Below are positions 1,951 through 50,537 of a stretch of DNA of 64,000 nucleotides, one piece after another. The notes below the pieces were generated by a model. The model was not told where the DNA came from, made no database searches, and saw only the letters and a program-made list of their open reading frames with translations. Made by a program: the position numbers and the translations under genes. The number at the start of each line of letters is the position of its first letter. The first letter of the stretch is position 1. This stretch comes from Kiloniella laminariae (lineage in GTDB: Bacteria > Pseudomonadota > Alphaproteobacteria > Kiloniellales > Kiloniellaceae), in NCBI RefSeq assembly GCF_027214005.1, contig NZ_JAPWGY010000001.1, forward strand, positions 372,001-436,000, in the 5' to 3' direction.

Positions 1951-3014
1951 TGTGAATTTCCCGACAGAAAATTTTGTGGGTTAAAGCAGGCCAGAGCGAC
2001 TTTTTCACTGGTCTGGAGAAGATCAGGTTTTTCTTCTGAGCAACGAGGTGTTGCCGCAAGACAGCGTGGCGCAAAGCAGCAGCCAGAGGGACGGTTGCCC
2101 AACCCGGGGGGAATTCCGGGGAGAGAATAGAGTTCGCTGCGCGGAGGTACATTTTCGGGTACAGAACGCAACAGGCCAATCGAATAGGGGTGCCGGGGAT
2201 TGCGCAGGATATTTCGCACCGGGCCAACTTCGACCAGTCTTCCCCCATACATAACAGCGATGCGATCACAGGTCTGTGCCGCGACGCCAAGATCGTGGGT
2301 GACCATGATGACAGACATGCCCATTTCGCGAGAGAGCGCGAGGATGAGATCAAGGATCTGCTGCTGGATCGTCACATCCAGGGCGGTGGTCGGTTCATCT
2401 GCCAGCAGAAGTTCCGGTTCCGAGGCCAGGGCTATGGCGATCATGACACGTTGGCGCATTCCGCCTGAGAATTGATGCGGATAGTCACCAAGGCGTGCTG
2501 CGGCAGAGGGAATGCCGACCAGATCCAAAAGCTCGATGGCTTTTTTCTTGCGCTCTGTCCGATCGAGCTTTGTGTGGGCTTTGAGGTTTTCGGTAATTTG
2601 CAGACCGACAGTCAAAAGAGGGTTGAGTGAAGACATTGGCTCCTGAAAGATCATCGCGATTTCCCGGCCGCGAATTTTCTGTAATGCCCGGTTGGTGAGG
2701 GTGTTCAGATCTTGTTTTTTCCAGAGAATTTCTCCCTCAACCTGGCCATAACGCTTGGTCAGGCCGAGGATAGAGCGCAGAGTGATGCTTTTTCCTGACC
2801 CGCTTTCGCCGACAAGCCCGAGAATTTCACCGGGCTTTACCGCAAAGGATACCTTGTCAATCGCCAGCAGACTGGATTGACCATGACCAAAAGACATGGA
2901 GAGATTGCGAACTTCGAGCAACCCGGGGGGATTGGCACTTTCCGGGTCGGTTGCTGCCGCTCCGTTTTGTGTCTGCCCGGCCCCTGTGGCTGGGTCTGAT
3001 GAATAGTGGCGCAT
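1947..3014 (-). CDS. Peptide/nickel-type ABC importer ATPase 1 (DppD/OppD family)
   Basis: This 355-residue protein is the first ATPase of the importer. It shows Walker A GESGSGKS near 69-76, the signature FSGGMRQR, Walker [13 protein letters not shown] and a C-terminal cysteine-containing oligo_HPY region. The open frame extends 26 codons further upstream, but the ATG at 3014 has AGAGG directly in front (inside the end of the permease gene) and removes an implausible extension. An unusual stretch of about 30 residues rich in Ala, Asn and Gln precedes the ABC domain. The gene starts one base past the permease stop and its own stop overlaps the next ATPase start. Confidence 0.93.
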
Positions 3015-3015
3015 G

Positions 3016-3873
3016 TTATCCTCTTGGTCTGAGCAGATCGGCGATGCCGTCACCAACCAGCGAGAAGCCAAATCCGGTAATGACAATGGCAATGCCAGGC
3101 ATCAGGCTGAGCCACCATGCCGTGGTAATAAAGTTCCTGCCTTCGGCAATCAGTACGCCCCATTCCGCTTCTGGTGGCTGGGCGCCAAGACCCAGATACC
3201 CCAGAGAGGACCCAAGCAGAATGGCAAGAGCCATATCGGTCATCCAATAGACGATGACAGGGGTAATGGCGTTGGGCAGGAGGTGGCGGAAAATAATCCG
3301 GCTGTCAGAATACCCCATAACCTTGCCGGCAGAGGCATAGTCATTGGCCATCTGTGCCATGATTTCCGCCCGCATCAACCGGGCATAATAAACCCAGCCG
3401 ACAAGGGTAATGGCGATGTACATATTGATCAGGCCAGGGCCGAGCACGGCGACAACGGCGATAACGAGCACAAGAAAGGGAAAGGTGATGATGGCATCAA
3501 CACACCGTCCGAAAATGATATCGGCAACTCCGCGGTAATAGCCGACAACCGCCCCGACCAAAACGCCAGTGATCAATGAGAAGATCGTGGCGAGAAAGGC
3601 CATCTGCATGTTAACCGAATAGGCCCAGATCACTCTTGAAAGGGTATCGCGACCCAGATTGTCTGTGCCAAAGAGGTGTAGGGCTGTCGGCGGTGACTGG
3701 AGGGCTGTGAAATCAAATACATTGGGGTCATAGGGGGCAAAGAAAGCGGGAAACGTCGCCAGTATCAGAGAAAATCCGAGAATGGTCAGTCCGGCGATAA
3801 AACCGGGTTGTAACCCTTGAAGACGTTTGAAAAAGCTGAAGCGTTTTTTTCGGGCAAGTGATGCATCTGTCAT
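3016..3873 (-). CDS. ABC importer permease 2 (DppC/OppC family)
   Basis: This inner-membrane permease of 285 residues has about six transmembrane helices. The motif HLFGTDNLGRDTLSRV after the first helix is typical of OppC/DppC permeases. The cytoplasmic EAA loop reads YASAGKVMGYSDSRIIFRHL and contacts the ATPases. The C-terminus GDGIADLLRPR is also canonical. It pairs with the upstream permease to form the channel; its ATG overlaps the upstream TGA (ATGA), which indicates translational coupling. An N-terminal cytoplasmic basic stretch (ARKKRFSFFKR) fits the positive-inside rule. Confidence 0.94.
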   Translation of the reverse strand: MTDASLARKKRFSFFKRLQGLQPGFIAGLTILGFSLILATFPAFFAPYDPNVFDFTALQSPPTALHLFGTDNLGRDTLSRVIWAYSVNMQMAFLATIFSLITGVLVGAVVGYYRGVADIIFGRCVDAIITFPFLVLVIAVVAVLGPGLINMYIAITLVGWVYYARLMRAEIMAQMANDYASAGKVMGYSDSRIIFRHLLPNAITPVIVYWMTDMALAILLGSSLGYLGLGAQPPEAEWGVLIAEGRNFITTAWWLSLMPGIAIVITGFGFSLVGDGIADLLRPRG

Positions 3874-41260: not shown

Positions 41261-41503
41261 ATGCCAGGACCGGATTTATATGAAACCCTGTCTGTTATGG
41301 CAGGGGCTGCCGCAGTGGTGGGAGCAGCCGGATGGTGGGCGACCCGTCCGCGTGTTCCGGGAACAATTCGCTGGATCTCTCCGACTGCTATTCAGTTTCT
41401 TGGTGTGATTGTCTTTGTATTGATGGTGCCGCATTTGCTTGGACTGCTTGGGGGAGCGGATTTGCTGCAGGCAATCTCATCCCAGCGAGGGTACCGCGGC
41501 TGA
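41261..41503 (+). CDS. Small two-helix membrane protein
   Basis: An 80-residue ORF encodes MPGPDLYETLSVMAGAAAVVG followed by a first helix to about residue 27, a basic loop (TRPRVPGTIRW) and a second helix at about 43-62. GCGGGA lies seven bases before the ATG. I know no named family, but the organisation is that of a genuine small inner-membrane protein. It converges with the next gene with 26 bases between. Confidence 0.55.
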   Translation: MPGPDLYETLSVMAGAAAVVGAAGWWATRPRVPGTIRWISPTAIQFLGVIVFVLMVPHLLGLLGGADLLQAISSQRGYRG

Positions 41504-41529: not shown

Positions 41530-41916
41530 TCAGGGGGTATAAAAGCTCTGGGGAACCGGCATAAAATCCTCGTCTTCTTCGTCCACCCCTGTTAGGTCGC
41601 CGATCGGTTCGAGGTCGTTTCTTGTCCACCAGTAACGAAAACCCTGGGCGCGGAGCCAGCGCTCTACCCGAGCCAGATCGTTCCACTCGCGCCCGAAGCC
41701 TCTTGCGGAATTGATCCTGGCAAGTTGCCCGTCGACATAAACCAGAACCCCCCATGAAAAGGGATGTTTGCTCTGGTCGCCAAAGCCGCCGCCTTTTTGC
41801 TGTCGGTGAACCCGATAGACCACAGGGAAATCACCGAGCCTTGCTGCCGTTCGCAGAAAAGGCAGGTCGGATTGTGTAATGGCCAGGGTCACGCCTAACG
41901 CTACATCTTGATCCAT
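41530..41916 (-). CDS. Conserved hypothetical protein (GREWNDLARVERWLRAQGF type)
   Basis: This 128-residue soluble protein has a C-terminal half with WGVLVYVDGQLARINSARGF, GREWNDLARVERWLRAQGFR and YWWTRNDLEPIG, a pattern I have seen in short proteobacterial proteins of unclear function, some carrying doubtful plasmid-replication labels. The end is acidic (VDEEDEDFM). No catalytic or binding motif is obvious. AAGGAA lies somewhat far (about 13 bases) before the ATG at 41916. Function not assigned. Confidence 0.65.
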   Translation of the reverse strand: MDQDVALGVTLAITQSDLPFLRTAARLGDFPVVYRVHRQQKGGGFGDQSKHPFSWGVLVYVDGQLARINSARGFGREWNDLARVERWLRAQGFRYWWTRNDLEPIGDLTGVDEEDEDFMPVPQSFYTP

Positions 41917-42013
41917 GTTGTTGACAGGTTCCTTTTTTTACTACAGCATGATCCATGATGAATTTTAAGTAGTAGCATTCACAGAGATGCAGCGAAAGAG
42001 AATAGAGGTAAAA

Positions 42014-42595
42014 ATGGCTCGAAAGATTAACCCGGTCCCCAAGGGATACCATACATCTACACCGGTTCTTGTGGTGCAGGATGCAGCGGCAGCCATTGAG
42101 TTCTACTGTGAGGTCTTTGGAGCCAAAGAGCTTTCAAGGCTGGTCTCCGATGACGGTCTGACCATTTTAAGATCAGAGCTTAAAATCGGAAATTCTGTTA
42201 TTCTGCTCAATGATGAAATGCCTGCCTATGGGATTTTGTCCCCGGCTTCCCTGGGGGGAGCGTCAACCGCCTTGCAGCTTTATCTCCCCGAGCTGGATGC
42301 TGTCTGGGCGCGGGCAGTAAAAGCCTATTCCTATGTGTTATTGCCGCTGGAAGATGCCTATTGGGGTGAACGGACGGGAAAATTGATCGATCCGTTCGGA
42401 CATGTCTGGATTCTGAGTAAGAAGACTGAAGTCCTCAGCCAGGAAGAGATCAAAAAACGCGCTGCCCTGATCAGCCCTCTTGCTTTTGGGCAGGACAACA
42501 ATGAGAATGCTTCTGTTCAAAATTCTGAACAGCTTTCGCCTTCCGGGCAAGATGCTGTTCCGATTATTGATATCGCAATGGCATTAAACGGCTGA
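42014..42595 (+). CDS. VOC/glyoxalase-like protein (PhnB-like)
   Basis: This 193-residue protein has a vicinal-oxygen-chelate domain at about 12-135 in the PhnB-like style: TPVLVVQDAAAAIEFYCEVFGAKEL, ILRSELKIGNSVILLNDE and DAYWGERTGKLIDPFGHVWILS. A C-terminal extension of about 60 residues rich in Asn, Ser and Gln is not part of the domain. VOC proteins bind metals and small molecules as isomerases, dioxygenases or resistance proteins; the function here is open. GAGGT precedes the ATG at 42014. It lies 90 bases upstream of gabT and may be co-transcribed. Confidence 0.85.
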   Translation: MARKINPVPKGYHTSTPVLVVQDAAAAIEFYCEVFGAKELSRLVSDDGLTILRSELKIGNSVILLNDEMPAYGILSPASLGGASTALQLYLPELDAVWARAVKAYSYVLLPLEDAYWGERTGKLIDPFGHVWILSKKTEVLSQEEIKKRAALISPLAFGQDNNENASVQNSEQLSPSGQDAVPIIDIAMALNG

Positions 42596-42685
42596 GAATG
42601 GCCGACTGGCTGAGAAACCCCGATGCTTCCGAGAGGTGTATCAGGGAGGTTTTGCAGCCTTTCTCAATCAGGTAAGGAAATGATG

Positions 42686-43972
42686 ATGAACAATTCTTCA
42701 CTTACAACACGACGGGACAATGCGATTCCGCGCGGTGTGGCGACAGCAACAAACGTCTTTGCTGACCGGGCTGAAAATGCCGAGCTGTGGGATGTTGAAG
42801 GCCGTCGCTATGTTGACTTCGCCGGTGGGATTGCTGTGCTGAATACTGGACACCGTCATCCGGATGTCATGGCTGCGGTTCAACAGCAGTTGGCGCGTTT
42901 CACCCATACGGCTTATCAGGTCGTACCCTACGAAACCTATGTCGAGCTTGCTGAACGCCTCAACCGTCTGGCTCCGGGGCCAACCCCCAAGAAAACTCTG
43001 TTTCTGACCACGGGTGCCGAGGCCGTGGAGAATGCGATCAAGATTGCCCGGGCTCACACCGGGCGTCCGGGTGTAATTGCTTTTTCTGGCGGGTTTCATG
43101 GTCGGACCAACCTGACGATGGGCCTGACAGGGAAGGTCGTCCCTTATAAAGTTGGTTTTGGTCCTTTCCCGGGTGATATTTTCCACGTGCCATACCCGAT
43201 GCCCAATCACGGGGTCAGCGAAGAAGATTCACTTGATGCACTCAAGACTGTCTTTAAAGCCGATGTCGATCCTAATCGCATTGCGGCATTAATCATCGAA
43301 CCTGTGCAGGGTGAGGGCGGCTTCTATATCGCTTCGCCTGCCTTCCTTGGCAAGCTGCGTGAAATCTGTGATGAACATGGCATTCTTTTGATTGCCGATG
43401 AAATCCAGACCGGTTTTGCCCGGACTGGCAAGACCTTTGCTATCGAACATTCCGGGGTTGAACCGGATATGATTACCATGGCCAAAAGTCTGGCCGGGGG
43501 CTTCCCGCTTTCCGGCGTAGTCGGTAAGGCCCACATTATGGATGCTCCGGCTCCTGGTGGACTGGGCGGGACTTATGGGGGCAGCCCGATCGGTTGTGCT
43601 GCGGCCCTGGCTGTTCTGGATGTAATCGAAAAAGAAGGTCTGAATGGCAAGGCGATTGCGCTGGGTAAAAAAGCGACGGACCGGCTGCATGCACTGAGCA
43701 ATCGCAATGATGTTCCGGCTATTGGTGCTGTTCGTAATCTCGGAGGCATGATTGCTTTTGAGCTGATGAAGGACAAATCCGGGAACACGCCTGACCCCGA
43801 TATGGCCAAGAAGCTTTGTGCCAAGGCCCTGGAAAATGGTCTTATCCTGCTTTCCTGTGGTATATATGGAAACACGATCCGCATTCTGGTGCCTTTGACG
43901 GCCTCTGATGCTGTGGTTGATGAGGGACTTGATCTTCTGGAAGCCGCACTGGTTCAGTGTGCTGTGGGCTAG
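42686..43972 (+). CDS. gabT: 4-aminobutyrate aminotransferase
   Basis: This 428-residue class III PLP aminotransferase transfers the amino group of GABA to 2-oxoglutarate, giving succinic semialdehyde. Key residues align with E. coli GabT one position earlier: the TTGAEAVENA phosphate loop (108-117), E210 in EPVQGEGG (typical of omega-amino acid enzymes), D238 in IADEIQTGF and the PLP lysine K267 in MAKSLAGGFP. Three ATGs lie in a row (42680, 42683, 42686) after AAGGAA; spacing favours the last. GABA can arise from putrescine, which links it to the decarboxylase unit downstream. 5-aminovalerate is another possible substrate. Confidence 0.92.
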   Translation: MNNSSLTTRRDNAIPRGVATATNVFADRAENAELWDVEGRRYVDFAGGIAVLNTGHRHPDVMAAVQQQLARFTHTAYQVVPYETYVELAERLNRLAPGPTPKKTLFLTTGAEAVENAIKIARAHTGRPGVIAFSGGFHGRTNLTMGLTGKVVPYKVGFGPFPGDIFHVPYPMPNHGVSEEDSLDALKTVFKADVDPNRIAALIIEPVQGEGGFYIASPAFLGKLREICDEHGILLIADEIQTGFARTGKTFAIEHSGVEPDMITMAKSLAGGFPLSGVVGKAHIMDAPAPGGLGGTYGGSPIGCAAALAVLDVIEKEGLNGKAIALGKKATDRLHALSNRNDVPAIGAVRNLGGMIAFELMKDKSGNTPDPDMAKKLCAKALENGLILLSCGIYGNTIRILVPLTASDAVVDEGLDLLEAALVQCAVG

Positions 43973-44003
43973 ACAGTCTGCCGGTTAATGTGTTCTGCTA
44001 TGT

Positions 44004-44031
44004 CCCCGATCGGGAGTTTGTCTGATCGGGG
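44004..44031. terminator. Hairpin after gabT
   Basis: CCCCGATC (44004-44011) and GATCGGGG (44024-44031) form a perfect 8-pair stem with a 12-base loop. No T-run follows directly, so termination strength is uncertain. Confidence 0.5.
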
Positions 44032-44104
44032 GCGGGCAGTACAATCCAAATTATTATTTCTGATCTTTTTTTATGAACGATCGGGATAAATTGAAAAGAG
44101 ATAG

Positions 44105-44968
44105 ATGACACCGTTTTCGATCGCCGGGGTACAGATGTATGTATCCGCAAGTCAGGAAAATATCTCTGCCATGAAGTTGCGGGTTGAGGTTGCTCTTGCT
44201 CGTTTTCCCTGGCTTGACATGATCCTTTTTAGTGAGCTTTCCCCCTTCGGGCCGTTACAGGGAAATCACCCCGAAACAATTTCTTCGCAGATAGAGATTT
44301 TTCAGGAACTGGCTGCTCAGCATAAAATCTGGCTGATACCCGGCTCGATGTTTGAACGCCGCGAAACCGGTGTTTTCAACAGCTCGGTTGTGATCAATCC
44401 CAATGGCGAAATCGTTGGTCGCTATGACAAGATGTTCCCCTTTATGCCCTATGAAACCGGGGTCACTGGCGGGACAGAGTTCCTGGTGTTTGATGTTCCA
44501 CAGGTCGGGCGTTTCGGTTTTTCGATCTGTTATGATATCTGGTTCCCTGAAACGACCCGGACCCTTGCTGCCATGGGGGCGGAAGTCTTGTTGCACCCGG
44601 TACTGACAGGAACAACAGACCGGGATGTCGAGTTGGCCATCGCCAGGGCTACTGCGGCACAGTTCCAGTGTTATGTTTTTGATATAAATGGAATTGGGGC
44701 GGGTGGTATCGGGCGGTCCTGTGTTGTCGGTCCGGGTGGAAACATGCTCTACGAGGCCCGGGGCAGCGAGGAGATTATACCGATAGAGATCGATCTGGAT
44801 CTGGTTCGTCGTCAGCGCGCGCTGGGGCAAAATGGTCTGGGACAGGTTCTCAAAAGTTTCCGTGATCGCAATGTCGATTTTTCTGTCTATGACAGATCCC
44901 GTTTTAGTCACGATTATCACGATAGCCTGGGGCCTCTTCAGATGCCTCACCGCAATATTCACAGTTAA
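44105..44968 (+). CDS. Nitrilase-superfamily amidohydrolase
   Basis: This 287-residue enzyme has the Glu-Lys-Cys triad of the carbon-nitrogen hydrolase superfamily: E44 in FSELSPFG, K109 in GRYDKMFPF and C142 in SICYDIWFPE. Nitrilase-superfamily members hydrolyse amides such as N-carbamoylputrescine, beta-ureidopropionate or omega-amides. Here the neighbours are GABA aminotransferase upstream and an Orn/Lys/Arg-type decarboxylase unit downstream, so an amide or carbamoyl derivative of a diamine is a reasonable substrate guess, not a demonstrated one. It is followed by a perfect hairpin (44980-45014). Confidence 0.9.
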   Translation: MTPFSIAGVQMYVSASQENISAMKLRVEVALARFPWLDMILFSELSPFGPLQGNHPETISSQIEIFQELAAQHKIWLIPGSMFERRETGVFNSSVVINPNGEIVGRYDKMFPFMPYETGVTGGTEFLVFDVPQVGRFGFSICYDIWFPETTRTLAAMGAEVLLHPVLTGTTDRDVELAIARATAAQFQCYVFDINGIGAGGIGRSCVVGPGGNMLYEARGSEEIIPIEIDLDLVRRQRALGQNGLGQVLKSFRDRNVDFSVYDRSRFSHDYHDSLGPLQMPHRNIHS

Positions 44969-44979
44969 GTTTATCAATG

Positions 44980-45014
44980 CTGTCGGTTCATCTGGACTAC
45001 AGGTGAACCGACAG
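44980..45014 (+). promoter_or_regulatory. Perfect hairpin between the nitrilase and decarboxylase genes
   Basis: CTGTCGGTTCA (44980-44990) and TGAACCGACAG (45004-45014) are exact reverse complements with a 13-base loop, starting 11 bases after the nitrilase stop. No U-tract follows, so it is more likely an mRNA-stability or attenuation element than a full terminator. Confidence 0.55.
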
Positions 45015-45127
45015 TAATGGATTGTCCTAGAAGAAACGGAAGGAACAGCCCGACAAGAGGCTAAGGTTAATAAAAATCGGTACCCATAATCATGTTAAAA
45101 AAATAAGTTAGCAGGGAAGAGGGACAA

Positions 45128-47893
45128 ATGGCGAAAGCTAAAAAGATTTATAACCAGCAATCACTCAGTCATTATTACAACGCTTCACAATTTCGCATTG
45201 ATACCTGGAACAAATTAAAAAGCACGACCCGCCAGATTGCCAATGGCGGTACGAACAGGGAAAAAAATATTGAAAAAGTCCGGGAGCTGCTCGCCTATCT
45301 GGCTCCTGTAGAAATCTACTGGGCCTTCCCGGGATCCCAGGTTTTCCAACAATTGGTTCGCGACGAACAGCTTGAAGAATTTGATCTTCTGGCCAACAAG
45401 GTTTCCCGGATAGCTTCTGCCCTGCTCAGCGGGGAATACCGTAGAAAGCATATCGTTCTTGATGGGGCAGCCGAGACCGAAGCCGAGCGGGATTCCGGTA
45501 TTGAATCAACGCCCTATACCAGTTTTGATCGCGCCCGAAGACGCCCGTATTTTGAAGTGCTGATCGTTGATGATCTGACGCCTGCTCAGGCTGAATCACA
45601 ACGTGCAGCCCTGACCGGAATGCGCCGGGATGAAGACCGCTGCACCTATGCGCCGATTTTTGTCCCGAGCCTGGATGATGCCCTGATCGCGGTTTCATTT
45701 AACCACAGCATTCAGTCGGTGGTGATCCGTTTTAATTTTGATCTTCATTCTGAAAATGGTTTGCCAGTCCTGAGCAAGTACCTCAGGGACACCAAACTTG
45801 ACGGCATTGAAGATGTTGATTCCAGCGAATATGGAATCATTCTTGCCGATGCAATTTCTCGAATCAGGCCAGAGGTTGATCTGTTTCTGGTAACCGATCA
45901 GTCGGTCGAAGACGTGGCGGGCCGGGTCGGGAAAACCTGTCGTCGGGTGTTCTATAACAGCGAAGATTTCTTTGAGCTGCATCTGAATATCGTACGGGGT
46001 GTGGAAGATCGCTATAAGACACCGTTCTTTACAGCACTGAAGACCTATTCTTCCAAGCCAACGGGTGTGTTTCATGCCCTGCCGATTTCCCGTGGAAAAT
46101 CCATTATCAAATCCCACTGGATTCAGGATATGGGAGAGTTCTATGGCATAAACATCTTCCTGGCCGAAACCTCTTCTACCTCGGGCGGCCTTGATTCCCT
46201 GCTCGAGCCAAGCGGGCCGATCAAAGAAGCCCAGGATCTTGCTTCCAGGGCTTTTGGATCCAAGCAGACTTTCTTTGCCACCAACGGCACCTCGACCTGT
46301 AACAAGATTGTAGTTCAGGCGCTGGTCCGCCCCGATGATATTGTGCTGGTTGATCGCGACTGCCACAAATCCCATCACTATGGCATGGTGTTGGCCGGAG
46401 CCAATGTAGTCTATCTGGATTCCTATCCGCTCAGCGAATATTCCATGTACGGGGCGGTGCCGCTCAAGGTGATCAAGGAAAGCCTTCTGAAACTGCGCAG
46501 TGAAGGTAAACTTGACCGGGTCAAGATGCTGCTTTTGACCAACTGTACTTTTGACGGGGTTATCTACAACGTCCAGCGGGTGATGGAAGAATGCCTGGCG
46601 ATCAAGCCCGATCTGGTTTTCCTCTGGGATGAGGCCTGGTTTGGTTTTGCCCGTTTCGGCCCGACCTATCGCCAGCGTACCGCGATGTTCTCGGCGGCGC
46701 ACCTGCGCGAGAGATACAAATCGGAAAGCTATCGCGAAGAGTACACACGCTATCAGGATGAAACAGCGGACCTTGATCCGGACGATCATGAGGCCTGGCT
46801 CAGCCGCCGGCTTTACCCTGATCCTGATCAGGTGCGGATCCGCGCCTATGCGACCCAGTCTACACATAAAACGCTGACCTCTCTTCGTCAGGGGTCCATG
46901 ATTCATGTGCATGATCAGGATTTCAAATCCAAGGTCGAGGAGTCTTTTCACGAAGCCTATATGACCCATACATCGACCTCGCCGAACTACCAGATCCTTG
47001 CGTCGCTGGATGTGGGGCGCAGACAGGTCGAGCTGGAAGGCTTTGAACTGGTGCAAAAGCAGGTCGAGATGGCGATGGTTTTGCGCCAGACAGTGATGAC
47101 CCATCCGCAGCTTCGCAAATTTTTCCGGATACTGACCGTTGGCGATATGGTGCCGTCAGAGTTCCGCGAGTCCGGTATCCAGAGTTATTACGATCTGGAG
47201 CAGGGCTGGAATGATATCTGGAATGCCTGGGAAATTGACGAGTTCTGTCTTGATGCAACGCGTATCACACTCTATGTCGGCCAGACCGGGATGGACGGGG
47301 ATACCTTCAAGAACAAGGTCCTGATGGACAAATATGGTATCCAGGTCAACAAGACATCGCGTAATTCGGTGCTGTTTATGACCAACATCGGGACCACGCG
47401 AAGTTCTGTTGCCTATCTGATCGAGGTTCTGGTCAAGATCGCCAACGATCTGGAGCAGGAAATCGAGGACATGAGCCCGGCAGAACGCCGTATCCATGAC
47501 CTGAAGGTCAAATCGGTTGTTGAAGACCTGCCTCCGCTGCCTGATTTCTCGCGTTTTCACGATGCTTTCCGGCCCAGCGGTGATCAGCCGGGAGATGAAG
47601 GGGATTCCCGTACGGCCTTTTTCCTCTCCTATGATGCAAATAACTGTGAATACATGGGTCTCAATGACCGCTCGCTTGATGATGCCATGGAGGCGGGGCG
47701 GGATGTGGTTTCTGCTTCCTTTATCATCCCCTATCCACCGGGCTTTCCGATCCTGGTGCCGGGGCAGGTGGCAAGTATGGAAATCATCGAGTTCCTGCGC
47801 AATCTTGATGTGAAGGAAATCCACGGATACCGGCCCGAACTGGGGCTGCGGGTCTTTACCGAAGAGGCAATCCAACGCCAGATGAAACGTTAA
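45128..47893 (+). CDS. Large Orn/Lys/Arg-type PLP decarboxylase (divergent)
   Basis: This 921-residue protein is a fold-type I Orn/Lys/Arg decarboxylase. Key elements are LVDRDCHKSHHYG, D501 in LVFLWDEAWFGFA (contacts the PLP ring nitrogen) and the Schiff-base lysine K581 in QSTHKTLTSLRQGSMIH. Family members remove CO2 from ornithine, lysine or arginine to give putrescine, cadaverine or agmatine. It differs from the usual 710-760 residue enzymes: about 160 extra residues, with 80 residues between D501 and K581 compared with 37 in E. coli LdcI, the extra part highly charged (SESYREEYTRYQDETADLD). The N-terminal third has a receiver-like wing domain. A ribosome binding site GGAAGAGGGA precedes the ATG. 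It heads a tight operon with an ATP-grasp ligase and an Ntn hydrolase. The amino acid substrate is not predictable. Confidence 0.9.
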   Translation: MAKAKKIYNQQSLSHYYNASQFRIDTWNKLKSTTRQIANGGTNREKNIEKVRELLAYLAPVEIYWAFPGSQVFQQLVRDEQLEEFDLLANKVSRIASALLSGEYRRKHIVLDGAAETEAERDSGIESTPYTSFDRARRRPYFEVLIVDDLTPAQAESQRAALTGMRRDEDRCTYAPIFVPSLDDALIAVSFNHSIQSVVIRFNFDLHSENGLPVLSKYLRDTKLDGIEDVDSSEYGIILADAISRIRPEVDLFLVTDQSVEDVAGRVGKTCRRVFYNSEDFFELHLNIVRGVEDRYKTPFFTALKTYSSKPTGVFHALPISRGKSIIKSHWIQDMGEFYGINIFLAETSSTSGGLDSLLEPSGPIKEAQDLASRAFGSKQTFFATNGTSTCNKIVVQALVRPDDIVLVDRDCHKSHHYGMVLAGANVVYLDSYPLSEYSMYGAVPLKVIKESLLKLRSEGKLDRVKMLLLTNCTFDGVIYNVQRVMEECLAIKPDLVFLWDEAWFGFARFGPTYRQRTAMFSAAHLRERYKSESYREEYTRYQDETADLDPDDHEAWLSRRLYPDPDQVRIRAYATQSTHKTLTSLRQGSMIHVHDQDFKSKVEESFHEAYMTHTSTSPNYQILASLDVGRRQVELEGFELVQKQVEMAMVLRQTVMTHPQLRKFFRILTVGDMVPSEFRESGIQSYYDLEQGWNDIWNAWEIDEFCLDATRITLYVGQTGMDGDTFKNKVLMDKYGIQVNKTSRNSVLFMTNIGTTRSSVAYLIEVLVKIANDLEQEIEDMSPAERRIHDLKVKSVVEDLPPLPDFSRFHDAFRPSGDQPGDEGDSRTAFFLSYDANNCEYMGLNDRSLDDAMEAGRDVVSASFIIPYPPGFPILVPGQVASMEIIEFLRNLDVKEIHGYRPELGLRVFTEEAIQRQMKR

Positions 47894-47934
47894 GCCAATA
47901 CCGAAATACAACGCTATAAACAGGGAGGCTATTT

Positions 47935-49455
47935 ATGAATAATAAAGCCGTAAAAAAAGTTGTGAAAAAAGCAGTGGTTTCAGGGAAAAGCTCTACAGCG
48001 AAAAAAACAGCTAAAACGCTGAATAACATGTCGGAAATCCGGCGCTTTTTTCATCGGAACGAACAGCCGATTTTCTTTGTCTCAGCAACCAATTTCAATC
48101 TTCTGGGGATTGATGAGTGGTGCCGAAATTTCAAATACATCAGCTATATAGATTGTTTTGACGGACGCCATCCGAACGTGTTCGTGCCAAGCGAGGCGGA
48201 ACATCCCGAGTTTGAGTCCATTGAGGATATCAACGTCTATCTGCTGGAGCACAAGGAAGTCATTGACCTGATCAAGTCTTCCAAGAAAAAGCCCAAAGTC
48301 GTTTTCCTGATGTTTGACAAACGGATAGAGAAGATCTGTAAGGAACTGGGCATTGATGTCTGGTTCCCCAAAGCGGCCCTGCGCGAGAAGATTGATCACA
48401 AGATCGAAACCGTGCGCATTGGCAATGCTGCGGGTGTTCCTTCTGTGCCCAACGTTCTGAGCGTGGTAAAAAGCTGGAAGCACCTGCAGGAGGTGGCCAA
48501 GCCCATTGGAACCGATCTGGTCTTGCAGTCGGCTTTTGGTGATTCCGGCCATACGACGTTCTTTATCAAGAGCGAAAAAGACTTCAAACGCTACGAGCAG
48601 AAAATCGTCGGGCAGGGCGAAATCAAGATCATGAAACGGATCAACAACCGGGGATCTGCGATTGAAGCCTGTGCGACCAAAGCTGGAACTGTTGTGGGGC
48701 CGCTGATGACCGAGCTGGTCGGCTTCAAACAGCTGACGCCTTATCGCGGCGGTTGGTGTGGTAACGAGATTTTCCCAGGCTCTTTTGACGAGAAAATTCT
48801 TGAAAAAGCCCGTCGTTACACCGAGAATTTCGGGAATCAGCTGGTCAAGGAAGGCTACCGCGGCTATTTCGAACTCGACTTCCTGATCGACACGGACGAT
48901 GGCGAAGTTTATCTGGGCGAATGTAATCCAAGGGTTACCGGAGCCAGTTCCATGACCAACCATGCTGCTTTTGCTCATGCGGATGCGCCGTTGTTCCTTT
49001 TCCATCTACTGGAATTTTCGAACGTACCATTCAAGCTGGACGTCGATGAACTGAACGCGCGTTGGGCGGACAGCGAGAACATTGACGACTGGTGCCAGAT
49101 GGTGATCAAGCACACAGATGACAATGTGGATATTCTGACCGAGGCACCGGAAAGCGGTATCTGGCGTTTACTCCCTGATGGAACGGTGGAATATGACCGC
49201 TTTGATTACCACCGCCGTGCTGTAAACAGTGAGAATGAAGCCTTCTTCCTGCGTATATTGATGCCGGGTGATTATCGTTATGAAGGGGCGGATCTGGGAA
49301 TTCTTGTGACCAGGGGCAGGGCCATGAACAAGGCTTTCCAGCTCAATGCGAGATCAAAGCAGTGGATCGACGGGATAAAGTCAAAGTTCAAGGCTGTACC
49401 TTTGCCCACGGCAGAAGCCTTGCCGGTTTCTGATCCCGCTTTCAAGATCATGTAA
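47935..49455 (+). CDS. ATP-grasp ligase with lysine-rich N-terminal tail
   Basis: This 506-residue protein has an ATP-grasp ligase domain at about 135-345: KIDHKIETVRIGNAAGVPSV-like entry region, the nucleotide loop VLQSAFGDSGHTTFF, RGYFELDFLID, and the Mg-binding EVYLGECNPRVTGASSM. Such enzymes activate a carboxylate as acyl phosphate and join it to an amine or other nucleophile. The first 28 residues carry nine lysines in VKK/AKK patterns resembling histone-H1-like tails, unusual for a soluble ligase. The C-terminal about 130 residues are of unknown fold. It follows the decarboxylase by 41 bases with AGGGAGG in front, and precedes the C45 hydrolase by 33 bases. An amine from the decarboxylase as acceptor is my inference. 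Confidence 0.88.
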   Translation: MNNKAVKKVVKKAVVSGKSSTAKKTAKTLNNMSEIRRFFHRNEQPIFFVSATNFNLLGIDEWCRNFKYISYIDCFDGRHPNVFVPSEAEHPEFESIEDINVYLLEHKEVIDLIKSSKKKPKVVFLMFDKRIEKICKELGIDVWFPKAALREKIDHKIETVRIGNAAGVPSVPNVLSVVKSWKHLQEVAKPIGTDLVLQSAFGDSGHTTFFIKSEKDFKRYEQKIVGQGEIKIMKRINNRGSAIEACATKAGTVVGPLMTELVGFKQLTPYRGGWCGNEIFPGSFDEKILEKARRYTENFGNQLVKEGYRGYFELDFLIDTDDGEVYLGECNPRVTGASSMTNHAAFAHADAPLFLFHLLEFSNVPFKLDVDELNARWADSENIDDWCQMVIKHTDDNVDILTEAPESGIWRLLPDGTVEYDRFDYHRRAVNSENEAFFLRILMPGDYRYEGADLGILVTRGRAMNKAFQLNARSKQWIDGIKSKFKAVPLPTAEALPVSDPAFKIM

Positions 49456-49488
49456 GGTCGGGCGAATTCTGGCAGAAGTGTAGGCAAG

Positions 49489-50475
49489 ATGGATCTTGTT
49501 TTTGAAAAGCTCTATGAGACCAAAGCTGGTCCGGCCTGGAAGGATCTGTTTGATCGTTTGTGGCCGGCCTATGAAAAATGGTTTCTAAGCGAGGGCATTT
49601 CAGCAAGGCAAACCTATCTTGCCGGCCTTCGGGCGATGAAACGCTATATGCCTGAACTGGTGCCGACTTACGAGCATCTTTGTGAACTGGCGGGCGGTGG
49701 AGATCTTGCCGCCCGTTTCCTCAGCTTCTATCGTCCCCCGCTTTATCTTTCCGGCTGTTCCCAGGCGGTTTGGCTGGGGGATGAACCCATGCTGGTGCGT
49801 AACTATGATTATGCACCAGAACTCTGTGACGGGGTTTTGCTCGACAGCGCCTGGAATGGTCGGCGGGTGATGGCGATTTCTGACGGCATGTGGGGTGTTG
49901 TCGACGGTATTAATGATGCTGGACTGGCAATTTCTCTGACCTTTGGCGGGCGGCGGGTCGTTGGGAACGGTTTTGGTGTGCCGCTGATCCTGCGCTATAT
50001 CCTGGAATTTTGTGACACGACAAAAGAGGCCATTGCCGTTCTGCGTCGTATTCCCTGTCACATGGCCTATAACGTGACCTGTGTGGATCGTTCCGGGGCT
50101 TATGTCACGGTATATCTCTCGCCGGATCGGGACGTACTGGTCAAGGATACCCGGGTCGCGACAAACCATCAGGAGCATGTGGAATGGCACCTGCACGCAC
50201 GTGTAACCGCGACGGTCGAACGTGAACGGTTTTTGTTGCAGCGACTGACCATGCATGATGAACCGGCTGATAAATTTATCAGTGCCTTTCTCAAGCCCCC
50301 CCTTTATTCGACGAATTTCTCCCGCGGGTTTGGCACGCTCTATACCTCGGTCTACTGGCCTTTACGGGGTATTGTGGATATCCACTGGCCGGGTGCGGTC
50401 TGGTCGCACAGCTTTGCAGAGCCAACGATTGAAAAGCGCCAGATCCGCTATCCCGACCATGTACCGCTTTACTGA
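49489..50475 (+). CDS. C45-type autoproteolytic Ntn hydrolase/acyltransferase
   Basis: This 328-residue protein resembles the peptidase C45 (acyl-CoA:6-aminopenicillanate acyltransferase-like) family of Ntn hydrolases. The probable nucleophile is C90 in YLSGCSQAVWLGD, which would become N-terminal after self-cleavage, followed by LVRNYDYAPELCDG with the conserved R104, N105 and D107. Later pieces are VVDGINDAGLAISLTFGG and YNVTCVDRSGAYVTVYLSPD. The first 89 residues would be a removable propeptide or pro-domain. Family members cleave or transfer acyl/amide groups. As last gene of the operon after an ATP-grasp ligase, it could cut or exchange the amide made by that ligase. A very strong terminator follows. 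Confidence 0.87.
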   Translation: MDLVFEKLYETKAGPAWKDLFDRLWPAYEKWFLSEGISARQTYLAGLRAMKRYMPELVPTYEHLCELAGGGDLAARFLSFYRPPLYLSGCSQAVWLGDEPMLVRNYDYAPELCDGVLLDSAWNGRRVMAISDGMWGVVDGINDAGLAISLTFGGRRVVGNGFGVPLILRYILEFCDTTKEAIAVLRRIPCHMAYNVTCVDRSGAYVTVYLSPDRDVLVKDTRVATNHQEHVEWHLHARVTATVERERFLLQRLTMHDEPADKFISAFLKPPLYSTNFSRGFGTLYTSVYWPLRGIVDIHWPGAVWSHSFAEPTIEKRQIRYPDHVPLY

Positions 50476-50493
50476 CAGATAAAACCAACGATC

Positions 50494-50537
50494 AGAAACG
50501 AGCAGGCCCCGGAAAATTCCGGGGCCTGCTCGTTTCA
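50494..50537. terminator. Perfect 19-pair terminator between the C45 gene and the chemoreceptor gene
   Basis: The arms 50494-50512 and 50517-50535 are essentially exact reverse complements (core ACGAGCAGGCCCCGG with CCGGGGCCTGCTCGT) with A-rich flank on one side and T/A-rich on the other. It lies between convergent genes and probably terminates both. Confidence 0.9.

Follow-up and report, generated by a model that had tools for sequence, protein, structure and literature searches.

Kiloniella laminariae carries, within a 64,000-nucleotide stretch of its assembly (GCF_027214005.1, contig NZ_JAPWGY010000001.1, positions 372,001 to 436,000 of the forward strand; hereafter the window), three closely spaced genes encoding an Orn/Lys/Arg-type pyridoxal phosphate (PLP) decarboxylase (DEC), an ATP-grasp protein (GRASP) and a C45-type N-terminal nucleophile (Ntn) hydrolase (C45). 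A first-pass annotation, made from the sequence alone, had proposed this trio, with gaps of 41 and 33 bases, as the operon of an undescribed pathway, and its coordinates were confirmed. Here we report that the trio belongs to a four-gene core together with a nitrilase-family gene (nit), and that this core moves horizontally, in the window's genus as part of a larger block. We tentatively assign to it the breakdown of a basic amino acid to a compound of the gamma-aminobutyric acid (GABA) type. Family membership was judged by Pfam gathering scores and NCBIfam curated cut-offs; stretches from relatives carry L numbers and sampled genomes G numbers. The features of the block, with protein lengths in amino acids (aa), are:

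41530-41916, minus strand: small open reading frame (ORF), 128 aa, the block's first gene, without Pfam family; read from the sequence
41987-42595, plus strand: VOC/glyoxalase-superfamily protein, 202 aa; Pfam Glyoxalase 38.8 bits (cut-off 20.6); synteny
42623-43972, plus strand: gabT, GABA transaminase family, 449 aa as listed; TIGR00700 623.8 bits (cut-off 506.65)
44105-44968, plus strand: nit, carbon-nitrogen hydrolase of the nitrilase superfamily, 287 aa, at the start of the conserved four; Pfam CN_hydrolase 110.6 bits (cut-off 23.2); E44, K109, E117, C142
45128-47893, plus strand: DEC, Orn/Lys/Arg-type PLP decarboxylase of the Rv2531c family, 921 aa; K581, D501
47935-49455, plus strand: GRASP, ATP-grasp protein of the PRK06524 family (named 'biotin carboxylase'), 506 aa; NF005096 750.4 bits (cut-off 684)
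49489-50475, plus strand: C45, C45/AAT-family Ntn hydrolase or acyltransferase, 328 aa; C90, R104, D107, N226
50495-50536: perfect 19-bp hairpin between C45 and a convergent chemotaxis gene

The true start of gabT probably lies further downstream than listed; its product scored under the cut-off of a related NCBIfam model, NF005692 (660.9 against 724 bits).

The four genes were compared across 80 loci, chosen as the best 80 from at least 584 relatives in genome_contigs; this sample favours close relatives, and since the flanks stop at 9 kb, the flanking-gene counts are minimum values. The order nit-DEC-GRASP-C45 was found in 71 of the 80 loci, always on a single strand. Measured between the longest open frames, the three gaps have medians of 55, 17 and 9 bases. 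In L106 nit is displaced downstream, and in L094 the order is upset only by an over-long DEC frame that starts before nit. About 30 genera are named among the relatives' records, chiefly Roseobacter-group Alphaproteobacteria; Granulosicoccus and Woeseia are among the Gammaproteobacteria, and the Betaproteobacteria are represented by a Cupriavidus plasmid. Among 240 genomes sampled from the class, GRASP occurred in 8 and DEC in 8, the two together in 7 and each alone in one more, against 0.27 joint genomes expected by arithmetic if they were independent. GRASP was present in 11 of 398 genomes sampled from the phylum, and in 14 control genomes NF005096 gave matches above cut-off in none and below it in 8. 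Pairwise distances among the homologues of the four proteins correlate with r from 0.72 to 0.90 (73 loci), which fits joint inheritance, though vertical descent alone can yield the same. It is supported that the four genes form one functional unit kept in many genomes. The trio had been put forward as the whole operon; it stands as part of such a unit, which comprises four genes including nit, or six or seven in the window's genus. Genes that are not neighbours in relatives, a homologous trio already assigned to a pathway, or degenerate active sites had been named beforehand as grounds for abandoning the proposal; we found the genes to be neighbours, no assigned homologous trio, and conserved active sites.

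Within the window's genus, GRASP scored above cut-off in 3 of 9 genomes, and a gabT orthologue of at least 84% identity was confined to the same three, a fourth genome having one at 58%. In four congeners without the operon the window's flanks nearly adjoin, with 135 to about 570 bases between them, and match the window up to position 41463 (41076 in one congener) and from 50557 on. In the third carrier, 41567-50460 is found on a piece of 18.5 kb with no match to either flank. From these empty sites and this different location the block was delimited as the small ORF, the VOC gene, gabT, nit, DEC, GRASP and C45, about 9 kb in length, and the operon is a horizontally moving module that travels as a block. 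No shared 12-mers (short direct repeats) were found at the block ends, and no tRNA in the window. Counterparts of the small ORF stand at the same block end in L017 and L018, the L017 copy without Pfam match; the VOC gene lies within the block in this genus and has a homologue in 6 of the 80 loci.

The hairpin beyond C45 had been described as a perfect terminator of the operon. Its perfection was borne out (19-bp stem, z about -10), its role was not: no T run follows 3', the three terminal T are paired, and the terminator scan of the window does not include it. A related hairpin stands beside the same chemotaxis gene in the four operon-free congeners; the hairpin is therefore older than the operon at that site and was not brought along, and we rejected it as the operon's own terminator. 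Two further copies are recorded for their own sake. An entire operon of alphaproteobacterial type is held by a record titled Oceanobacillus, a Firmicute name (L075), which is probably a mislabelled genome, and L153 (9017-10746) holds a truncated GRASP and a C45; neither DEC nor nit was recognised in the vicinity, and this operon copy appears to be decaying.

DEC scored 250.3 bits with Pfam OKR_DC_1 (PF01276, cut-off 27). K581 and D501, both singled out in the first-pass annotation, align with sites of Escherichia coli AdiA and CadA, the former with the PLP lysine and the latter with the aspartate of the D-[ES]-AW motif. Among the 80 loci K581 is kept in 78/78 and D501 in 77/77 ungapped rows, and both in 13/13 distant copies. 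By cut-off DEC is not LdcC, lysine decarboxylase (PRK15400) or SpeF (198, 168 and 154 bits against 968, 1056 and 1310); it is also below the AdiA cut-off (NF011603, 175.4 against 1167), which does not argue against the same activity. The position of CadA E526, which we take to be a functional acid of the lysine enzyme and which is Glu in SpeF too and Thr in AdiA, is Asn741 in DEC, in 80/80 loci and 13/13 distant copies. The candidate substrates that remain, as far as residues can tell, are arginine, diaminobutyrate or a conjugate with a neutral side chain. We counted for arginine that the window's DEC reads DEAWFGFARF where AdiA reads DEAWYGYARF. E391 of Vibrio vulnificus CadA (VvCadA) is kept as E609 in 78/78 ungapped rows and in 12/13 distant copies, with Asp in one; the accessible part of PMC6297170 reports that E391 matters for lysine in that enzyme. 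Among the CadA and AdiA residue roles sought in the accessible parts of the literature, only those of VvCadA E387 and E391 were of use. The closest solved relative of DEC is Mycobacterium tuberculosis Rv2531c (PDB 9n0n, 9n0o; 872 bits, residues 12-918), a probable amino acid decarboxylase whose structure study left the activity unclarified according to the accessible part of a 2026 review (PMC12910592). Sinorhizobium meliloti SMa0680 and SMa0682 were dropped as activity evidence: in the accessible source text they are named decarboxylases and FixJ-regulated, no activity is shown, and identity with DEC is not established. A DEC subfamily without GRASP lies beside AspT antiporters and forms a tree clade of its own (support 100/96); its loci (L120:10008-16471, L121:11959-18275, L129:8001-12520) possibly represent a decarboxylation-antiport system.

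In sequence GRASP matches biotin carboxylases weakly; its fold match is clear. Its model has a pLDDT (predicted local distance difference test) score of 73, with several catalytic loops under 50 (202-205, 268-275 and most of 330-347). In the fold search biotin carboxylase, PurK and PylC tie at Z 20.9-21.3 (PylC, an amide ligase, at 20.9), and the search did not tell carboxylase from amide ligase. The assignment as an ATP-grasp enzyme holds: the fold is present, and so are the Mg-binding residues of the superfamily (D/E ... E-x-N) as D315, E329 and N331. The site is unusual, with Gln for the ATP lysine and without the biotin-carboxylase base. AccC K116 is kept as K156, and AccC K159, presumably the ATP lysine, is replaced by Q198. 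Alignment with a related biotin carboxylase domain pairs AccC E201 with M233, E276 with D315, E288 with E329, N290 with N331 and R292 with R333. AccC E296, which we take to be the catalytic base, falls on A337 if this alignment is extended two positions past its end, ungapped; that column holds Ala, Cys or Ile and never Glu in 94 copies. Q198, M233, D315, E329, N331 and R333 are invariant in 94/94 copies. We rejected GRASP as a biotin carboxylase on the replacement of the ATP lysine by Q198 and the loss of the E296 base; such a mechanism appears unlikely, and the name of the PRK06524 family looks wrong. The term 'PRK06524' occurred in no paper of the open PubMed Central (PMC) literature searched.

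C45 scored well above the NF040521 cut-off (181.6 against 85 bits), and the predicted nucleophile C90 is present in 87/87 copies. C90, R104 and D107 are kept in 79/79 related loci and 8/8 distant copies, and N226 in all but one gapped row; the catalytic roles of these positions in C45 enzymes are assumed here. The model (pLDDT 89) is closest in fold to the precursor of isopenicillin N acyltransferase, with Z 29.2 across 301 residues. Bile salt hydrolases and penicillin V acylases align to the model from about residue 90; their mature forms begin with the nucleophile cysteine. The nit residues E44, K109, E117 and C142 are present in 74/74 loci with the gene and in 8/8 distant copies, so that catalytic residues are conserved in nit, DEC and C45 alike. 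The best NCBIfam match of nit is AguB (TIGR03381), at 83.8 bits below its cut-off of 410.25, and its profile matches include, among others, a solved nitrilase also labelled beta-ureidopropionase. A gabT homologue (at least 40% identity) lies in the flanks of 16 of the 80 loci, and in L030.

The genes next to the core point to arginine, to diaminobutyrate/ectoine and to GABA. A TAXI-TRAP transporter stands upstream in 37/80 loci (beside nit in 36, beside DEC in L106), an HTH-cupin regulator in 21/80, a glutamate-synthase-like gene in 15/80 and CaiB in 7/80; one regulator scanned was closest to PuuR. In L141, of the same phylum and another class, the genes are DoeA, DoeB, Lrp, nit, GRASP, C45, DEC, semialdehyde dehydrogenase, class III aminotransferase and EutB; DoeA, DoeB and EutB score above their cut-offs, and the four core genes lie between DoeB/Lrp and DoeC/DoeD-like genes. 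L142 reads Lrp, nit, GRASP, DEC, semialdehyde dehydrogenase, aminotransferase, and L144 has a partial gabT, semialdehyde dehydrogenase, C45 and nit on one strand with DEC and GRASP on the other, so that semialdehyde dehydrogenase and class III transaminase are close to the core in all three. Ectoine genes also lie close to DEC in Phyllobacterium, as does ectB in S. meliloti ml66. In Shinella zoogloeoides, XES5 and Sinorhizobium RAC02, GRASP-C45 lies without DEC within an arginine cluster, with a nit homologue (61%) near; in Shinella and XES5 this cluster contains 5-guanidino-2-oxopentanoate decarboxylase, a SpeB-family ureohydrolase, D-amino acid dehydrogenase, RidA and a racemase-arginase fusion. 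The DEC of the XES5 plasmid is apart from GRASP, within 9 kb of ArgO, ArgP, arginase and ornithine cyclodeaminase, and in L148 an agmatinase-family gene (185.7 bits, cut-off 174.3) is two genes ahead of nit.

Three side observations concern these neighbourhoods. L144 encodes an Imm49-type immunity protein (2953-3810) between gabT/semialdehyde dehydrogenase and the operon genes. The annotated alanine racemase of the arginine catabolic cluster in L119 (15779-17566) is an alanine racemase N-terminal domain fused to an arginase-family domain. A plasmid recorded as Roseateles (UNVERIFIED; L123, L127) shares its gene order around GRASP with the Shinella plasmid L119, and its organism label is doubtful.

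On Rhizobium leguminosarum plasmids the genes after DEC-GRASP-C45 encode a peptide-type ABC transporter, an amidase, MurR and a serine hydrolase, and in one strain the operon is divergent from nifH. Five rhizobial plasmid copies with DEC and GRASP were scanned with sigma54 and NifA consensus patterns that we presume to be the accepted ones. All five carry a sigma54-type -24/-12 site that fits the consensus at 10 or 11 of 12 positions and lies between 42 and about 240 bases 5' of DEC; it ranks first, or within the top two or three, on its strand of the 21-25 kb locus. In three, L116, L117 and L169, a TGT-N10-ACA site lies 102-105 bases ahead of it. The putative sigma54 or sigma54/NifA sites are:

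L116, 8958-9078
L117, 8937-9054
L125, 9159-9174
L169, 6577-6696
L170, 7167-7182

Three of the five sigma54-type sites are not independent, being identical in sequence and from related strains. DEC copies without GRASP nearby reach only 9 (L122) and 8 (L127) matches and have no TGT-N10-ACA upstream site. A link to NifA is suggested by the spacing of TGT-N10-ACA and not by the motif itself, and the putative sites suggest expression in nitrogen-fixing nodules. PMC8305402 was dropped as a NifA link: its accessible part lists an ATP-grasp gene, Bphy_7724, near a heme-oxygenase-domain gene, and nothing there ties it to DEC or C45. As a separate observation, two radical SAM maturation enzymes for ribosomally synthesized and post-translationally modified peptides and a Glu/Leu/Phe/Val dehydrogenase adjoin the operon in L116 (2412-7675) and L170 (611-5915); a Nif11-type precursor is annotated in L170, and the dehydrogenase in L116 also has sigma54-like sites.

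We propose, with a probability of roughly 0.3, that the operon is a mobile catabolic module that takes a basic amino acid, arginine leading, to a GABA-type omega-amino acid via an amide conjugate. Such a tag-oxidise-untag route is proposed because many contexts converge on GABA or a similar omega-amino acid and several on arginine, and because of the chemistry of the enzyme families; the steps that we infer are as follows. DEC would decarboxylate the amino acid to an amine (arginine to agmatine), and GRASP, using ATP, would couple this amine to a carboxylic acid, as a first guess glutamate, thereby masking one amino group. A transaminase or aldehyde dehydrogenase would oxidise the free end; in the window this would fall to the module's gabT or to enzymes encoded elsewhere, and in some relatives perhaps to the neighbouring semialdehyde dehydrogenase. 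C45 would then cut the amide, freeing the omega-amino acid and recycling the acid; nit would hydrolyse a primary amide or ureido group arising en route, and GABA transaminase would lead on to succinic semialdehyde. The earlier idea that the trio makes, conjugates and remodels a polyamine-like molecule is partly supported; 'polyamine-like' does not stand as written and is one possibility among several.

A number of observations weigh against this proposal. An oxidase is missing from the core, as in most cases is an aldehyde dehydrogenase, and the oxidation step is therefore not encoded in the window's module; its absence is the weakest point of a reading modelled on the E. coli Puu pathway, and the PuuR-like regulator is under its cut-off (142.5 against 211 bits). 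Lysine and ornithine are unlikely as DEC substrates because the E526 position is Asn in 93/93 copies, and arginine is unproven from the residues, the AR of the AdiA-like motif varying among other DEC copies. ATP use by GRASP is itself inferred because the ATP lysine is Gln in 94/94. Agmatinase-family genes give no support for arginine in the window's genus because they occur in 8 of 9 genomes with or without the operon; the TAXI-TRAP and AspT neighbours fit an acidic substrate at least equally, and the Shinella-type clusters lack DEC and an obvious diamine. TGT-N10-ACA alone is common: L116 holds 4 against a shuffle mean of 2.6 (23 of 100 shuffles reach 4), and L125 holds 2 against 2.7. The four-gene order also has departures. 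Of the remaining 9 of the 80 loci, six have DEC-GRASP-C45 and no nit and one has nit-DEC-GRASP and no C45, several of these seven at contig ends; the other two are L106 and L094. C45-GRASP occurs without DEC in L027, and L128 has nit-GRASP with neither DEC nor C45 recognised within 10 kb; L145 and L146 have DEC-GRASP with neither C45 nor nit recognised; in L142 C45 was not recognised and the ORF in its place matches no family. L117 has DEC split across two frames and C45 cut short ahead of an insertion sequence element. One sampled genome (G252, L153) has a truncated GRASP and a C45 with no DEC, and one of the class sample (G239, L164) has DEC and no GRASP.

The strong rival among other explanations, though fairly unlikely in itself, lets GRASP act first: it would join glutamate and an amine in a gamma-glutamyl amide, DEC would remove the alpha-carboxyl of the conjugate, and C45 or nit would free GABA for the transaminase. 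This order, which resembles the ATP-grasp/decarboxylase pair BtrJ/BtrK of butirosin synthesis, needs no oxidase and, in the window's block, assigns a step to each of GRASP, DEC, C45/nit and the transaminase. N741 in place of the lysine enzyme's acid fits a neutral amide side chain, and the neighbours are possibly glutamate-related (the TAXI-TRAP importer, the glutamate-synthase-like gene, and the Glu/Leu/Phe/Val dehydrogenase in R. leguminosarum). The GRASP-C45 pairs of the Shinella-type clusters, with no DEC nearby, speak against it, and the purpose of the cycle is obscure unless the amine itself is the target. Next come two routes. In one, no likelier, DEC or another route would give an omega-amino acid; GRASP would couple this to an amine so that it can be stored or exported, and C45 would release it, much as Ebony and Tan conjugate and release in insects. 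Tan belongs to the C45 family and carnosine synthase is an ATP-grasp enzyme; the labelling of the solved nitrilase matched by nit also as beta-ureidopropionase would fit as well, and the AspT-type antiporters next to DEC paralogues point to an acidic amino acid as the substrate. However, DEC retains the acidic E609 of the lysine enzyme, the AspT-linked copies form a separate clade, and importers and GABA transaminase suggest breakdown. The other, slightly more doubtful, ties the operon to ectoine breakdown, with 2,4-diaminobutyrate decarboxylated by DEC to 1,3-diaminopropane and on to beta-alanine. The L141 core within doe/eut genes and the DEC copies near ectoine genes and ectB favour it, and we counted for it that, in the accessible part of PMC10228743, mutation of diaminobutyrate aminotransferase lowers beta-alanine in R. 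leguminosarum bacteroids. Ectoine genes are nevertheless rare in the flanks (EutB-like 1/80, DoeD-like 1/80) and absent from the window's block, and the Phyllobacterium DEC belongs to the AspT clade without GRASP.

It is improbable that GRASP is a bicarbonate-using carboxylase, as biotin carboxylase and PurK are, acting on urea or a guanidino compound with nit and C45 hydrolysing the carboxylated product. Those two enzymes are its closest folds (Z about 21), R333 matches the biotin carboxylase R292, and the arginine clusters contain ureohydrolases, which release urea; yet PylC ties in the fold search, the ATP lysine is replaced and Glu never occupies the base position. Least probable of all, and rejected as the main reading, is ordinary putrescine synthesis from arginine through agmatine (by DEC) and N-carbamoylputrescine, with nit as AguB. 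AguB is the best NCBIfam match of nit, at a score far below its cut-off; moreover, the window's genome has no agmatine deiminase (PF04371), and GRASP and C45 would be left without a role.

The amide-conjugate route to a GABA-type product remains the reading we prefer. A recurrent mobile operon is found in marine and soil bacteria, in the Roseobacter group and other marine Alphaproteobacteria, in some Beta- and Gammaproteobacteria and on rhizobial symbiotic plasmids. It provides a pathway setting for three families for which no assigned function was found, namely the Rv2531c-type decarboxylases, the PRK06524 'biotin carboxylases' and a C45 subfamily. We found no described pathway with the trio or the four-gene set in the open PMC literature, in agreement with the first-pass annotation, though a subscription paper could exist. 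If true, the proposal describes a non-homologous counterpart to Puu and a possible new root-nodule metabolite. In its widest form, which we hold as tentatively as the proposal itself, the operon would be an independently evolved second amine tag/untag system, in which a mobile set of ATP-grasp ligase, C45 hydrolase and Rv2531c-family decarboxylase yields GABA from a basic amino acid or a conjugate of it, and which in rhizobia, under NifA/sigma54 and in one strain beside nitrogenase genes, would make or recycle a nodule-specific amide.

Several known systems bear comparison. DEC belongs over its full length to the same family as Rv2531c. With AdiA, CadA and SpeF it shares the PLP lysine, the D-[ES]-AW aspartate and the HKS motif (hidden Markov model alignment of residues 142-915), whereas its N-terminal part is longer, Asn stands at CadA E526 and its scores are below the NCBIfam cut-offs. 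C45 has the fold and nucleophile position of isopenicillin N acyltransferase and, by fold, of N-acylethanolamine acid amidase, at 13% identity to either structure. The ectoine degradation cluster (doe/eut) shares a neighbourhood with the operon in L141; the terms decarboxylase, biotin carboxylase and ATP-grasp are absent from two ectoine papers (PMC5924519, PMC13188858). The E. coli Puu (gamma-glutamylputrescine) pathway, the closest in outline, proceeds by the steps ligate, oxidise, hydrolyse and transaminate. A ligase, a hydrolase and a GABA transaminase would likewise stand in one unit here, with a PuuR-like regulator near some copies. The operon has an ATP-grasp ligase where Puu has the glutamine-synthetase-like PuuA, and C45 where Puu has PuuD, neither pair being homologous; among the six window proteins scanned there was no Pfam match to a PuuA-type (glutamine synthetase fold) ligase or a PuuD-type hydrolase. 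Its core is without PuuB and PuuC and carries its own decarboxylase and nitrilase-family amidase. In its logic the operon resembles known ones for amine or amino acid catabolism, though the key enzymes differ.

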